Shown here one piece after another: positions 26,065 to 31,914 of a DNA stretch of 64,000 bases (the first letter of the stretch is position 1; each line of letters opens with the position of its first letter). The stretch lies in NCBI RefSeq assembly GCF_001956695.1, contig NZ_CP019070.1:744001-808000 (forward strand), in the 5' to 3' direction. The position numbers and the translations under genes are program-made. Below the pieces are notes generated by a model. The model searched no databases, was not told the DNA's origin, and was given only the letters and a program-made list of their open reading frames with translations. Origin of the DNA: Poseidonibacter parvus (lineage in GTDB: Bacteria > Campylobacterota > Campylobacteria > Campylobacterales > Arcobacteraceae).

Positions 26065-26079
26065 TGATAATAATTATCA
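26065..26079. promoter_or_regulatory. Fur box (perfect 7-1-7 inverted repeat)
   Basis: TGATAAT-A-ATTATCA matches the minimal 7-1-7 Fur-type operator exactly. It sits 75 bases before the imelysin start and 75 bases from the divergent rhodanese start. A second, degenerate copy (TGATAATTGATATTA) starts at 26123. Repression by iron-loaded Fur is the expected reading. Confidence 0.8.
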
Positions 26080-26154
26080 GTTTAATATTAATTTAAGTCA
26101 AATTTCGATTTAATTTCATTAATGATAATTGATATTAAAATTAAAAGGAACATA

Positions 26155-27513
26155 ATGTTAAATAAAACAAAACTTTTTGCAGCTTCTTTATCTGTAGTAA
26201 CTGCAATCGCACTAACTGGTTGTGTAACAACAACTGCAAATGATGCAATGACAAAAATGGAAACTGTTAAGTCAAAAGGAATTTTAGGTTCATATGCAAA
26301 TTTAGCATTAGCAAACTATACTGATGCTTTAAACGATGCAATCGTTTTAGAAAAAGCAATTGATATTTTTGCTTCAAATCCAAGTGCTACAAACTTTACT
26401 AATGCAAAAAAAGCTTGGTTAGTTTCAAGAGAATCTTACGGTCAAACTGAAATCTTTAGACTTGCAAATGGTCCAATTGATGCAGAAGAAGGTTGGGTTG
26501 CTGATGCTTATGGTGCTTTAGAAGGACAACTTAATGCTTGGCCTTTAGATGAAAATATGATTGATTATACAATTGATGCAAATGGAGCTAAAACTTCAGG
26601 AAATATTATTGATACTATGGGTACTTTTAATCCAGGTGGAGAAGATGCACAAGCTGTAAATGTTAAAACTATTACAGAAGATGCTTTATCTGCATTAAAT
26701 GAAAATGGTGGAGACGCAAATGTTTCAACTGGTTACCATGCTATTGAGTTCTTATTATGGGGACAAGATCAAGATTACTCTAACTTCTTAAAAGATTCAG
26801 TAACAAAAGGTGCATTAACAGCAGGACAGCGACCATTAAGTGATTTTACTACTGCTAAAAATGCAGACAGAAGATTAGCTTATTTAAAAGCAGCTGCATC
26901 TAAAGTCGTAAATGATTTAACAACTGTTAAAAGTGCTTGGGTAAAAGATGTAAATGGTTCTAATGGTTTATATCAAGCTGCATTACAAGGTAATTTAAGT
27001 GATTCAAATTCTTCAAAAAATATTGAATCAAGTGAAGCTTTAAAACAAATTATTGCTGGTATGGGTGTATTTATGAAATCTGAATTAGCAAATGAAAGAA
27101 TTGCAGTAGCAGTTTTAACTCCTAGTGAAGAAGATGAACATTCTTGTTTCTCTGATAATACACATAGAGATATTTTAAATAACTATCTTGGATTTAGAAA
27201 TGTTTTAACTTCTACATATAAAGGTCAAAAATTTGGAAACTCTTTATTAGATACTCTTGATGCTGATTCAAAAACTAGAGTTATTTCTTTAATGAAATCA
27301 ATTGAAGAAAAAATTAATAGTGTTGATAATGCTGCAAAAACTAGTGAGCACTTTGATTATCAAATCAAATCAACAAGTTCTCAATCAAAAGTGATTGTAA
27401 AACTTAAAAATGAAATGAGAAAATTAGGTGATGAAATGGTTAATGTTGCTAAAGCAAATGGTATTGATTTAACTAGTGATGATGTAACTGATGCTGAAGA
27501 AACAAAAATTTAA
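26155..27513 (+). CDS. Imelysin family lipoprotein (iron-uptake associated, M75-like)
   Basis: Exported lipoprotein of 452 residues; lipobox LTGC with acylated Cys23. The imelysin signature GxHxxE is present as GYHAIEF with His195 and Glu198. Imelysin-like proteins are Fur-regulated and thought to bind iron or haem at the cell surface or periplasm; peptidase activity is disputed. The ATG at 26155 is chosen because AAAAGGA is directly upstream and the signal peptide starts here. It is the first gene of a five-gene unit and overlaps the next gene by 23 bases. A strong terminator follows 28 bases after the stop, so this gene should be the most abundant product. Confidence 0.9.
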   Translation: MLNKTKLFAASLSVVTAIALTGCVTTTANDAMTKMETVKSKGILGSYANLALANYTDALNDAIVLEKAIDIFASNPSATNFTNAKKAWLVSRESYGQTEIFRLANGPIDAEEGWVADAYGALEGQLNAWPLDENMIDYTIDANGAKTSGNIIDTMGTFNPGGEDAQAVNVKTITEDALSALNENGGDANVSTGYHAIEFLLWGQDQDYSNFLKDSVTKGALTAGQRPLSDFTTAKNADRRLAYLKAAASKVVNDLTTVKSAWVKDVNGSNGLYQAALQGNLSDSNSSKNIESSEALKQIIAGMGVFMKSELANERIAVAVLTPSEEDEHSCFSDNTHRDILNNYLGFRNVLTSTYKGQKFGNSLLDTLDADSKTRVISLMKSIEEKINSVDNAAKTSEHFDYQIKSTSSQSKVIVKLKNEMRKLGDEMVNVAKANGIDLTSDDVTDAEETKI

Positions 27514-28879
27514 TTTTTCTTTCTTTCGTTTAGTTCTAACTAAAAGCCTAGTAGCAATTTTTGCTACTGGGCTTTTTGCGGTTAATAATACTGGCGACTT
27601 TTTCTCCACAAAGAAAGATAAGTCTTTAATGTTAAAACCAATAAGTGGTATGAATAATGAACAGTATGATAAATTTATTTTAGGGAGAAGCTTTTTTGTA
27701 ATACCTTGGGTTGAAGCACCAAGTGCTACAACTGCAAGAGATGGTTTAGGACCATTATTTAATGCAAATACATGTGTTTCATGTCATGCAGGAAATGGTA
27801 GAGGAACTTTATACAATAAAAAAGGTAAACCCTCTCGTTCATTAGTAGCAAGATTATCTATTGCTTCTAATGGTTCTTTTGAACATAAAGAACTATTAAA
27901 TAAAAATGGTTTTATTCCGCATCCTGTTTACGGTGCTCAAATATCAATTAATGGTATTCATGGTGTGGATTTTGAAGCAAGAGTAAAAATAGATTTTGAA
28001 AAAATTAAAGTAAAGTTTCCTGATGGTGAAATTGATGAACTTTTAAAACCAAAATATGAACTTATAAATAAAAACTATGGAAAAATATCAGAAGATACAG
28101 CGATAACTTATCGTATTGCACCTTCTTTACATGGTTTAGGTTTAATTGAAAAAATATCAAATGAAGATATTTTAAAAAATGTTGATGAAAATGATAGCAA
28201 TAATGATGGTATATCAGGTAAAGCTAATATGGTATATTCACCTAAAACAAAAAAATATGAGTTAGGTAAATATACATGGAAAGCTAGTTCAGCAAGTGTG
28301 ATTGAGCAATCCGCAGCAGCAGCTTCTAGTGATATGGGATTAACAAGTATGTATTTTATGAATGAAAATTGTACTAGTTCTCAAAAAGAGTGTAATGATG
28401 CACCAAAAGCTGTACACAAAGAAGATATAACACCACAGCGATTAGAAGCAATTAGTTTTTATTTAAAAAATACAAAAGCCTATAAACCAAAACAAACACA
28501 AGAGTTTAAAGAAGGTTTAGAAATATTTGAATCAATTGGGTGTGTTAAATGTCACGCTAATAATTTTAAAACTTCTGATAACTTAACTATATCACCTTAT
28601 TCGGATTTTTTACTTCATAATATGGGTGAGCAATTAAGTGATAATAGAAATGAATTTAATGCAAGTTCAAAAGAGTGGAGAACTTCTCCTTTATGGGGAC
28701 TTTCATTACATGAAAAAATAAACAAAAAAAGACCTAGGTTATTACATGATGGAAGAGCTAGAGATTTCCAAGAAGCGATTCTTTGGCATGGTGGGGAAGC
28801 AAATAGTGTAAAAGAAAACTATATGAATTTACCAAAACAAACAAGAAAAAAATTACTTAAATTTTTAGGAAGTATATAA
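27491..28879 (+). CDS. Di-heme oxidoreductase, DUF1111 family c-type cytochrome
   Basis: A 462-residue periplasmic cytochrome with two c-type haem sites: CVSCH (Cys95, Cys98, His99) and CVKCH (Cys351, Cys354, His355). The middle region (GRSFFVIPWVEAP, DGLGPLFNANTC, LHDGRARDFQEAILWHGGEA) is typical of the DUF1111 'thiol oxidoreductase' family often coupled to imelysins. The ATG at 27491 lies inside the upstream gene; from here the N-terminus MLKKQK..LVAIFATGLFA is a fair signal peptide, which a haem c protein needs. That stretch is encoded by the terminator hairpin at 27542-27577. The next in-frame ATG (near 27629) would leave it without an export signal. Confidence 0.9.
   Translation: MLKKQKFNFSFFRLVLTKSLVAIFATGLFAVNNTGDFFSTKKDKSLMLKPISGMNNEQYDKFILGRSFFVIPWVEAPSATTARDGLGPLFNANTCVSCHAGNGRGTLYNKKGKPSRSLVARLSIASNGSFEHKELLNKNGFIPHPVYGAQISINGIHGVDFEARVKIDFEKIKVKFPDGEIDELLKPKYELINKNYGKISEDTAITYRIAPSLHGLGLIEKISNEDILKNVDENDSNNDGISGKANMVYSPKTKKYELGKYTWKASSASVIEQSAAAASSDMGLTSMYFMNENCTSSQKECNDAPKAVHKEDITPQRLEAISFYLKNTKAYKPKQTQEFKEGLEIFESIGCVKCHANNFKTSDNLTISPYSDFLLHNMGEQLSDNRNEFNASSKEWRTSPLWGLSLHEKINKKRPRLLHDGRARDFQEAILWHGGEANSVKENYMNLPKQTRKKLLKFLGSI
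27542..27577 (+). terminator. Intrinsic terminator hairpin inside the signal-peptide codons
   Basis: Stem AAAAGCCTAGTAGCAA pairs with TTGCTACTGGGCTTTT (16 pairs, one T-G wobble) around a three-base loop and is followed by a T run. It stands 28 bases after the imelysin stop, where a terminator would be expected, but also codes for residues of the export signal of the following cytochrome. Confidence 0.85.
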
Positions 28880-29823
28880 TGAAAAAAATTTTATTTACAT
28901 TGATGTTCTTAGTATCAACTATTTTTGCACAAGAGACAGCATTAATTTCGATATTAAAAAATATATCAATACCAAATGTACAAAACACAATAAACAATGC
29001 TGATGCTTTAAAAAAAGATTTAAACGAGCAGAATTTCAAGAAATTTTTAAAGTCATGGAAAAAAGTAGAAGCAATATATTTTGCAGGTGAAATAGACAAT
29101 GATTATTTAGATTCGCCTAGATATATTGATGTATTTCATAATCTAAAAGAAGATTTAAATGAACAAATGAAAAGAGTAATTGCTTCAAAAGATGATGTGA
29201 ATATTGCATTATTTAAAAATTCATTTAAAACTATAAATGCTTTAGAGTACGTTTTATTTAATGATAAAGAAATCACAACTAGAGAAAAACTTTTAAGTAT
29301 TGAAATAATTAAATCAATTCAATCTCATTTAAATGATATAAAAGAAGTTTATACAAACTATTTAAAGCAAAAACCAAAAGAAGAAAAATGGGAAAATGCA
29401 ATGATTATCAATACATTAGTTGCAAGTACATATAGATTGAAAGAGTGGAGAATAGGTGATCCAAGTGGTAATTCTTCAAAATATAAAGATGATATTGATA
29501 ATAAAAGAGCAGAATATTTTTTAAGTAAGAATTCATTTGAAGCTATTACTTCAATTTTAGATGCTCATGATGAAATAATGAATACTTCAAACTCTTATAA
29601 TTTTGGAAAAATGGCTATAGAGTCTGGTGCAAAAGCTGAGGTTATGGAAGTACAAAATGCAATAAAAAATGCAAAAATAGAAGTATCAAAATTGAAAAAT
29701 GATGATTTTTCAAATGCAAAAGAGTTATATAATAGTGCAAAGAACTTACATAATGCATATTATTTATCACTAATTGAGCAGTTATCTGTAACTGCAAAAA
29801 TCCTTGATGCAGATGGTGACTAA
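28879..29823 (+). CDS. Second imelysin-like periplasmic protein
   Basis: A 314-residue exported protein (signal peptide MKKILFTLMFLVSTIFA) resembling imelysins: an all-helical body with WKKVEAIYFAGEIDNDYLDSPRYIDVFH, the segment NALEYVLF where imelysins have HAIEFLLW, and YRLKEWRIGDPSG. The His of the GxHxxE motif is therefore Asn here while the Glu remains, so metal binding may differ from that of the first imelysin. Its ATG overlaps the cytochrome stop as TAATG. In other genera a pair of imelysins flanks a DUF1111 gene in the same way (recalled). Confidence 0.82.
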   Translation: MKKILFTLMFLVSTIFAQETALISILKNISIPNVQNTINNADALKKDLNEQNFKKFLKSWKKVEAIYFAGEIDNDYLDSPRYIDVFHNLKEDLNEQMKRVIASKDDVNIALFKNSFKTINALEYVLFNDKEITTREKLLSIEIIKSIQSHLNDIKEVYTNYLKQKPKEEKWENAMIINTLVASTYRLKEWRIGDPSGNSSKYKDDIDNKRAEYFLSKNSFEAITSILDAHDEIMNTSNSYNFGKMAIESGAKAEVMEVQNAIKNAKIEVSKLKNDDFSNAKELYNSAKNLHNAYYLSLIEQLSVTAKILDADGD

Positions 29824-29825
29824 AA

Positions 29826-30749
29826 TTGAATGATCTTTTTGCATTAGAATATATTATAAACCCAAATAAAAGAATATTTTGGGTTTATATCTTTACTGCA
29901 ATTGCAATAAGCATAATTTATTACTATTATAATTCAAGAGGTAAAAGAGTGATTTTAAGTTCAAAACTATGGCTTCATCCTAGTGCTAAACTTGATTATT
30001 ATTACTTTTTTATTTCATATTTTATAAAAGTATTTATGCTAATTCCTATTGTTATTTCTGCAAAAAGTATCGCTTTTTTAGTAAATAAACAACTATATTT
30101 ACAATTTGATTATTATGAAAATACATACTTCTCATATGAAGTTGTAATTTTAATGTATACAATTTCACTTTTTATAGTAAGTGATTTTTCAAGATATTGG
30201 TTACATAGATTTTTACATACAATTCCTTTTTTATGGGAATTTCACAAAGTTCATCATAGTGCAAAAGTTTTAACACCTATTACTTTTTATAGAGTTCATC
30301 CAATTGAAAATCTTCTTTTTGGACTGCGATATTCATTAAGTATTGGTCTTGTAACTGGTGTATTTGTCTATTTCTTTGGTGCTATGATTGATATATATTC
30401 GGTTTTAGGTGTAAATATTATTGTATTTGTTTTTTCAATTTTAGGATCAAATTTAAGGCATTCCCATGTGCCTTTTTCTTTTGGACAAAGAATTGAGAAA
30501 TGGTTTATTTCACCAAAGCAACACCAAATTCATCATAGTAGAAATTTTTTTAATAAAAACTATGGAGGAACATTAGCACTTTGGGACAGAGTATTTGGCA
30601 CTTTAAAACTATCAAAAGAAGTAAAAGTATTAAAATTTGGTTTACGAAGAAATCAAATGAATGAGTATAAAAGTATTTTTGATTTAGTATTTAAACCATT
30701 TAAACTTTTAGCAGTAAAAAACATAAAAAATATAAAAAAAGGGAATTAA
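29826..30749 (+). CDS. Sterol desaturase / fatty acid hydroxylase superfamily membrane protein
   Basis: A 307-residue membrane protein with the histidine clusters of non-haem di-iron hydroxylases and desaturases: HRFLH (His127, His131), HKVHH (His140, His143, His144) and HQIHH (His233, His236, His237). Four to five helices surround them. Such enzymes oxidise lipid chains or sterol-like substrates with oxygen; the substrate is unknown. The start is TTG at 29826, two bases after the upstream stop. Its place in an iron-controlled operon is unusual and suggests lipid modification or oxygen chemistry tied to iron supply. Confidence 0.85.
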   Translation: MNDLFALEYIINPNKRIFWVYIFTAIAISIIYYYYNSRGKRVILSSKLWLHPSAKLDYYYFFISYFIKVFMLIPIVISAKSIAFLVNKQLYLQFDYYENTYFSYEVVILMYTISLFIVSDFSRYWLHRFLHTIPFLWEFHKVHHSAKVLTPITFYRVHPIENLLFGLRYSLSIGLVTGVFVYFFGAMIDIYSVLGVNIIVFVFSILGSNLRHSHVPFSFGQRIEKWFISPKQHQIHHSRNFFNKNYGGTLALWDRVFGTLKLSKEVKVLKFGLRRNQMNEYKSIFDLVFKPFKLLAVKNIKNIKKGN

Positions 30750-30750
30750 A

Positions 30751-31914
30751 ATGATTTATTTAAAACTTATAGTATTAGGATTTTTTGCTCTAATATTTAC
30801 TGGGTGTTTAAGTGATAATACCTTATCAAAAGCAGAAATTTTAAAACAAAAACAAGATAAAGAAATTTTAGGAAAAGTTTTATATTTTGATAAAAACTTA
30901 TCAAAAAATAGAACTCAGTCGTGTGCAACTTGTCATAATCCTGAAGCTGGGTTTGTTGATGATAGAAATAATGGTGTAAATTCAATGGCTTCATTAGGTG
31001 ATAATAATACTTCAATAGGGGATAGAAGTGCACCAACAGCATCATATGCAATGTTTTCTCCAAAGTTTCATTATGATATTAAAAAGAAAAAGTATATTGG
31101 TGGACAGTTTTGGGATGGAAGAGAAGATGACTTAGAAGGTCAAGCTGGAGGACCACCATTGAATCCTGATGAAATGGGTATGAAAGATAAAAAAGAAGTT
31201 AGTCTTAGATTACAAGAAAACTCATATTATGTTGAAAGTTTTAAAAGTATTTATGGAGATGATATTTGGGAAAATGATGATTTGGTATATAAAGCTATGA
31301 CAGAAGTAATAGCAGCTTTTGAAAGAACAAAAGAGTTTGCTCCTTTTGATTCAAAATATGATAGATTTTTAAAAGGTGAATATAATTTGTCAGCTTTAGA
31401 AGATTTAGGAAAAGCAATATTTTTCTCAAATAATAATAACTCTTGTGCAACTTGTCATGTATTAAAAGGTGAAGATAAATTAGGTGAAACATTTACTAAT
31501 TATGAATATCATAATATTGGTACACCTGCAAATACAAGATTGAGAGCTAAAAATGGTGTTTCAACTATTGATGGTGGTTTATTAAATAATCCAAAAGTTA
31601 CAGATAAAAAAGAAAAAGGTAAATATAAAGTTCCAACTTTAAGAAATGTAGCAGTAACTGCACCTTACATGCATAATGGTGTATTTAAAGATTTAAGAAC
31701 TGTAGTAGAGTTTTATGATAAATACAATAATAAAGATAGAAAAATTAACCCTGAAACAAATAAGCCTTGGGAAGATCCAGAAGTTAAAGAAACGATTTCA
31801 TTAGAAGAGTTAAAATCTAAAAGACAAAGTGATAGAAAAATAGAAGCCTTAGTTGCATTTATGAAAATTTTAACCGATAAAAAATATGAACATCTTTTAA
31901 TAGATAGTAAATAA
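30751..31914 (+). CDS. Di-heme cytochrome c peroxidase family lipoprotein
   Basis: A 387-residue lipoprotein (lipobox FTGC, Cys19) of the CcpA/MauG family with two CATCH haem sites (Cys58-Cys61-His62 and Cys232-Cys235-His236). Supporting lines are RSAPTASYAMFSPKFHYD, GGQFWDGREDDLEGQAGGPPLNPDEMG and KVPTLRNVAVTAPYMHNG. Classical members reduce hydrogen peroxide with electrons from cytochrome c; relatives oxidise protein side chains. It begins one base after the previous stop and is the last gene of the operon, followed by a terminator. Confidence 0.9.
   Translation: MIYLKLIVLGFFALIFTGCLSDNTLSKAEILKQKQDKEILGKVLYFDKNLSKNRTQSCATCHNPEAGFVDDRNNGVNSMASLGDNNTSIGDRSAPTASYAMFSPKFHYDIKKKKYIGGQFWDGREDDLEGQAGGPPLNPDEMGMKDKKEVSLRLQENSYYVESFKSIYGDDIWENDDLVYKAMTEVIAAFERTKEFAPFDSKYDRFLKGEYNLSALEDLGKAIFFSNNNNSCATCHVLKGEDKLGETFTNYEYHNIGTPANTRLRAKNGVSTIDGGLLNNPKVTDKKEKGKYKVPTLRNVAVTAPYMHNGVFKDLRTVVEFYDKYNNKDRKINPETNKPWEDPEVKETISLEELKSKRQSDRKIEALVAFMKILTDKKYEHLLIDSK

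Follow-up and report, generated by a model that had tools for sequence, protein, structure and literature searches.

The imelysin operon and its first gene junction

The window analysed here is a 64,000-nt stretch of the Poseidonibacter parvus chromosome, and all coordinates refer to it unless stated otherwise. It carries an operon that opens with an imelysin gene followed by a di-haem (two-haem) oxidoreductase gene (DHOR) and three further genes. The features are listed below together with their basis.

26065–26079, strand not assigned: Fur box TGATAATAATTATCA in the operon promoter region, 5' of imelysin; perfect 7-1-7 match (sequence)
26155–27513, plus strand: imelysin (Peptidase_M75), first gene of the operon, with a lipoprotein-like signal (ORF list, domain match)
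27491–28879, plus strand: DHOR (PF06537, 2.9e-68)
27491–27583, plus strand: DHOR signal-peptide code, MLKKQ...LFAV (ORF list; only in-frame start ahead of the mature protein)
27542–27557, plus strand: 5' arm of the junction hairpin, AAAAGCCTAGTAGCAA (sequence, fold, pair counting)
27558–27560, plus strand: hairpin loop, TTT (sequence, fold)
27561–27576, plus strand: 3' arm of the junction hairpin, TTGCTACTGGGCTTTT (sequence, fold, pair counting)
27573–27577, plus strand: U-tract, T run within CTT TTT, which codes for L-F; the RNA would be expected to end in it or immediately 3' of it (sequence, terminator score)
28879–29823, plus strand: second imelysin-like gene (ORF list, domain match)
29826–30749, plus strand: fatty-acid hydroxylase family gene, 3' of the hairpin (ORF list, domain match)
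30751–31914, plus strand: CCP_MauG di-haem gene, 3' of the hairpin (ORF list, domain match)

The imelysin ORF opens at 26122, and the likely start at 26155, which is preceded by AAGGA, was picked by inspection. The DHOR start falls within the 3' end of imelysin, and the gaps among the four genes downstream of the hairpin amount to -1 to +2 nt. The second imelysin-like gene follows DHOR in all 30 relatives with enough flanking sequence. A single Fur box lies 5' of imelysin; in 30 of 31 relatives it retains 13 or more of its 15 positions, compared with 10.8 in shuffled sequences, and the imelysin operons of P. aeruginosa and V. cholerae are described as Fur-regulated (PMC3143127). Promoter-like sites in a consensus scan of the window are no commoner than in shuffles, and hence we claim no internal promoter. 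The same scan lists a terminator-like site at 30455–30474 inside the fatty-acid hydroxylase gene, with seven pairs and a T-rich tail.

A terminator-like hairpin in the signal-peptide code

The junction hairpin (27542–27576) comprises 16 pairs, one of them G-U, a 3-nt loop and a U5 tract. It begins 28 nt 3' of the imelysin stop and 51 nt into the DHOR frame. The region 27480–27610 folds at -39.1 kcal/mol (z -5.75), a value equalled by none of 200 shuffles. The G+C-rich 12-pair core (GCCTAGTAGCAA/TTGCTACTGGGC) with its 3-nt loop has the form of an intrinsic terminator stem, and in the window the U-tract TTTTTGCGGTT adjoins the stem as intrinsic termination demands. On the score of d'Aubenton-Carafa form, a heuristic calibrated on E. 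coli in which d>0 marks a terminator, the hairpin reaches +17.2, with a stem of -18 kcal/mol. Of the 46 sites that exceed zero in 464 kb, it ranks 25th, and it thus scores as a mid-ranking intrinsic terminator. The consensus scan for promoters and terminators in the window did not pick it up, the T run being taken up into the 16-pair stem; since the end of the longest stem swallows these bases, the U-tract was judged by the terminator score. In Rfam, no family matches above its gathering score; weak matches to the trpB motif and rli61 were set aside as generic terminator similarity.

The DHOR ORF from 27491 reads MLKKQKFNFSFFRLVLTKSLVAIFATGLFAVNN, and the bases of the hairpin encode KSLVAIFATGLF (K-S-L-V-A-I-F-A-T-G-L-F), the core of its signal peptide. 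There is no in-frame start codon between the hairpin and the mature protein, and thus the peptide encoded by the hairpin is the only export signal of DHOR. The preliminary description had proposed that this sole signal is encoded by a hairpin of terminator strength just past the imelysin stop and that a polymerase must cross this hairpin to reach the four downstream genes, and had named a separate promoter and start after the hairpin as one finding that would overturn this. Its proposal is supported on these points.

The stability of the hairpin is not a consequence of the peptide it encodes. Synonymous recodings of the same peptide (90-nt fold, local codon usage) reach -14.4 +/- 3.0 kcal/mol, compared with -29.9 kcal/mol for the observed sequence (z -5.2), and nearly all relatives likewise fold more strongly than their recodings, with z mostly between -3 and -8. 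In 1.26 Mb of the genome, 333 ORFs have a hydrophobic N-terminus, and none of them carries a more stable hairpin near its start than the junction hairpin. Strong terminator-like sites within an ORF on the same strand number 2 out of 65 in this 1.26 Mb, both in signal-peptide code.

Codon choice and residue identity point in the same direction. The Gly10 codon is GGG in 56 of 59 sequences although GGG makes up 5–7% of glycine codons, Ser2 is AGC in 47 of 53 (AGC usage 4–6%) and Leu11 is CTT in 58 of 59 (CTT usage about 21%). The 14-residue block KSLVAIFATGLFAV has a mean pairwise identity of 69%, compared with 64% in the mature enzyme, 27% in the eight residues before it and 25% in the 12 residues after it; these flanks vary as an ordinary signal peptide and the N-terminus of a mature protein do. 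Moreover, residues that face each other across the stem covary. Positions 5 and 8 are occupied by A-A, V-A, V-T, A-C, I-C or T-V, and the combination A-T, which would create a C-A mismatch, is never seen in the aligned Arcobacteraceae sequences. Rare codons suited to the stem are thus retained, and the shape of the RNA helps to dictate the residues of the signal peptide.

Compensatory change in Arcobacteraceae

A DHOR match is found in 72 of 104 Arcobacteraceae genomes, and 71 loci have an identifiable imelysin stop; ORF calls and stops were assigned by script. With mononucleotide shuffles, the 75 nt after the imelysin stop fold at z<-3 in 70 of these 71 loci, compared with 4 of 69 for the 75 nt after the DHOR stop, that is, at the next junction. 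A terminator score above zero occurs at the imelysin–DHOR junction in 43 of 71 loci, which is a conservative count as the scan rules leave out bulged stems, and in none of 65 second junctions or 699 CDS windows (Fisher, 1e-16, indicative as relatedness is ignored).

In 55 distinct aligned sequences, 90% of cells are paired and double changes affect 12 of the 16 pairs (35 cells). If the partner is slid by 1–3 columns, 42–62% of cells pair and at most five pairs show double changes. A Fitch count on the tree (FastTree, DHOR and imelysin; a single maximum-likelihood tree with simple parsimony) gives 24 independent double changes between standard pairs, compared with 0–4 with slid partners. The alignment across relatives that the preliminary description had suggested as a check therefore finds both pairing and hydrophobicity kept. 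RNAalifold on the aligned core yields a poor consensus (-2.9 kcal/mol), probably because the Cys-containing Aliarcobacter set has a shifted internal loop, and pairs were counted on the named structure instead. This set, whose Cys lies in the signal peptide, keeps the stem and U5 with a bulge or internal loop and under the scan rules is scored as having no terminator.

These data bear on two readings in which the RNA structure has no function. T-rich hydrophobic codons could by themselves provide a T run, and the hairpin might then be a by-product of signal-peptide composition or codon use. The recoding z values, the independent double changes, the retained rare codons and the identity of the block relative to its flanks refute this reading, to which we assign practically no probability. 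The near-perfect inverted repeat with 16 bp per arm would also suit a DNA palindrome bound by a dimeric regulator. Such a site is very hard to reconcile with loci in which the stem sequence is wholly replaced at the same place (L041, which has a longer stem, L062, L064, L066, L069–L072 and L074), with pairing kept in L041, L062, L064, L066, L072 and L074, or with the G-U pair, a mismatch in DNA, that is retained in 54 of 55 sequences. The hairpin with its double role, imelysin 3' end and DHOR signal-peptide code, is thus confirmed as real and not a product of chance.

A tract of U4–U6 lies 3' of the stem in most loci, the divergent L064, L072, L091 and L107 included, and the stem stands without a U-tract in L053, L065, L066, L067 and L069–L071. 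As the stem is kept without a U-tract in some lineages, termination cannot be the whole function everywhere. The stem should then have another role as well, and the simplest candidate is that it protects the 3' end of the imelysin mRNA. In E. coli, hairpins that are stable and conserved at the start of a downstream coding sequence favour the first gene of an operon; they lack a U-tract and have been read as decay protectors (Dar and Sorek, 2018; PMC5927463). The junction hairpin could likewise be a pure mRNA-decay device that terminates nothing and stabilises the imelysin part by blocking 3'–5' exonucleases after downstream cleavage. Its location within a downstream coding sequence and the stems devoid of a U-tract agree with such a device, whereas the U4–U6 in most loci and the enrichment of the terminator score at this junction only speak against it. 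We consider it unlikely as the full explanation.

Position relative to the imelysin stop

The apex of the hairpin lies at a median of about 46 nt past the imelysin stop in Arcobacteraceae and about 37–40 nt past it in other phyla, where such a hairpin is frequent, inside the DHOR frame or not. Where the gap between the genes is long, the hairpin is intergenic, as in Vibrio (L118, L120, L123, L125), Psychromonas (L112), Pseudomonas (L115), Tenacibaculum (L111) and Polaribacter (L160). Marinobacter sp. SS5-14b (L144) and Ca. Ruthturnera (L107) have a hairpin with U-tract inside the DHOR signal-peptide code. Genus g3 (L059–L061) has a shorter signal peptide, and its hairpin, weaker, devoid of a U-tract and about equally far from the imelysin stop, falls in the codons of the mature N-terminus (synonymous z -0.8 to -2.7). 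In other taxa, the terminator score exceeds zero at 16 of 63 imelysin–DHOR junctions, compared with 0 of 62 next junctions and 1 of 619 CDS windows (Fisher, 1e-5, again indicative with relatedness ignored). The members of this distant set are variably related and include a few Arcobacteraceae duplicates (L103, L104, L106); L102–L104 were excluded from the score count. Loci of the same order outside Arcobacteraceae score above zero in 1 of 11 cases. A Fur box with at least 13 of 15 matches is found in none of 21 imelysin–DHOR gaps of distant loci, and recognisable Fur boxes in these loci lie 5' of imelysin. Hence, the distant hairpin is probably internal to one operon.

Taken over all these loci, the position of the hairpin is tied to the imelysin stop and not to the DHOR start. 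This matters for the idea, put forward in the preliminary description, that ribosomes entering at 27491 prevent termination. Such a ribosome-gated attenuator, in which ribosomes cover the stem and DHOR translation controls downstream transcription, has a precedent in pil1 of Streptococcus gallolyticus, where melting of a premature terminator by the ribosome is proven (PMC3894217). The DHOR frame overlaps the stem, ribosomes on the full-length mRNA must melt it, and with a start 51 nt before the stem, in the imelysin end, a ribosome could in principle arrive. However, the hairpin tracks the imelysin stop and lies outside any frame in other phyla, the DHOR start region is not unusually structured, and no conserved structure occluding the start codon, alternative structure or pause element 5' of the stem was found in relatives. 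Furthermore, a re-initiating ribosome would presumably need to outrun the polymerase. Antitermination by ribosomes from 27491 is possible but unsupported, and we regard ribosome gating as highly improbable.

Proposed function

The sequence evidence is best accommodated if the hairpin is a leaky intrinsic terminator and at the same time a 3'-end protector of the imelysin mRNA that keeps imelysin above its four followers, which we think is probably the case. Transcripts would begin at the Fur-controlled promoter 5' of imelysin. Most of them would be expected to end near 27577 and to yield abundant imelysin, the stem would also shield this mRNA from 3' exonucleases, and the fraction that reads through would provide DHOR and the next three genes at a lower level. 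In nearly all Arcobacteraceae, the DHOR frame opens no later than the imelysin stop. With the two genes overlapping in this way, only signal-peptide codons were left to hold the element. Compaction would have led the 3' element and the signal peptide to share bases, with selection on the stem constraining the peptide.

In a broader version, Arcobacteraceae would repeatedly place the terminator of a strongly expressed gene in the codons for the signal peptide of the gene that follows; translation of this peptide would tune read-through, and synthesis of an exported protein would thereby influence how its own operon is transcribed. This seems doubtful to us.

Relation to known systems

ORF-internal RNA 3' ends have already been described (PMC7815308). 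The closest relatives of the junction hairpin are those of Dar and Sorek (PMC5927463), with which it shares a conserved stable fold in the start of the next gene, extra conservation at wobble positions and the expected benefit to the first gene of the operon. Those hairpins lie 107 +/- 56 nt into the coding sequence and are unconnected to signal peptides. The junction hairpin fits that type in its location at a CDS start; it differs in its U5, a U-tract being absent in a minority of relatives, and in lying in signal-peptide code that is conserved family-wide with coupling between amino acids. The malE-malF hairpin (described in PMC5927463) also follows a first gene for an exported protein and favours it, but is intergenic and non-coding and acts by exonuclease resistance. 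The pil1 attenuator (PMC3894217) is similar in that translating ribosomes can melt a terminator hairpin, but it follows a dedicated, phase-variable leader peptide in front of the operon, whereas the junction hairpin is overlapped by the frame of the downstream enzyme and its control by ribosomes is putative.

Imelysin/DHOR (EfeB-like)/imelysin operons such as PA4370-PA4373 and VC1264-VC1266 resemble the locus in gene content, order and Fur control (PMC3143127); the passages on them do not mention a hairpin at the junction. The Pseudomonas and Vibrio loci in our analysis have a hairpin at the same junction, but it is intergenic. In a limited literature search, we found no report of a terminator that shares its bases with a signal peptide and is maintained by compensatory change, and no paper that treats imelysin together with a terminator. 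Protective hairpins in downstream coding sequence are thus known; what appears to be new is the combination of U-tract, signal-peptide code and compensatory change.

Signal peptides are usually seen as freely evolving hydrophobic filler. RNA pairing explains why residues change in pairs here and why the DHOR signal peptide is as conserved as its enzyme. The many compensated variants offer a clean natural system for the study of stoichiometry within an operon without intergenic space. Elements of this kind will escape terminator predictors that leave out coding sequence, as well as consensus scans.

Further structured gene starts in the same genome

A second terminator-like hairpin, TAGGAGTGATTTTTTCACTTCTATTTTTTTT, lies within the codons for the signal peptide of a 212-aa protein (G000:C1:367522-367545; L185:3522-3545). 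By inspection, its gene directly follows an apparent ccoNOQP (cbb3 oxidase) operon and two small ORFs. A hairpin at this site is visible in all 30 relatives read, 26 of them with z<-2.5, and shows compensated changes such as that from GGAGTGA/TCACTTC to GGCAGTGC/GCACTGTC. As a second conserved case after the cbb3 operon, it indicates that the arrangement of a terminator in signal-peptide code recurs.

On the minus strand at G000:C1:490841-491680, 58 nt past an apparent napA, the codons for the twin-arginine-like signal of a napG-like gene contain a strong hairpin of -20.4 kcal/mol (synonymous z -4.2) with a weak U-tract. From G000:C1:935914 onward, the first codons of a secY-like gene, which starts 2 nt after a ribosomal L15-like gene, are structured beyond synonymous expectation (z -5.6).
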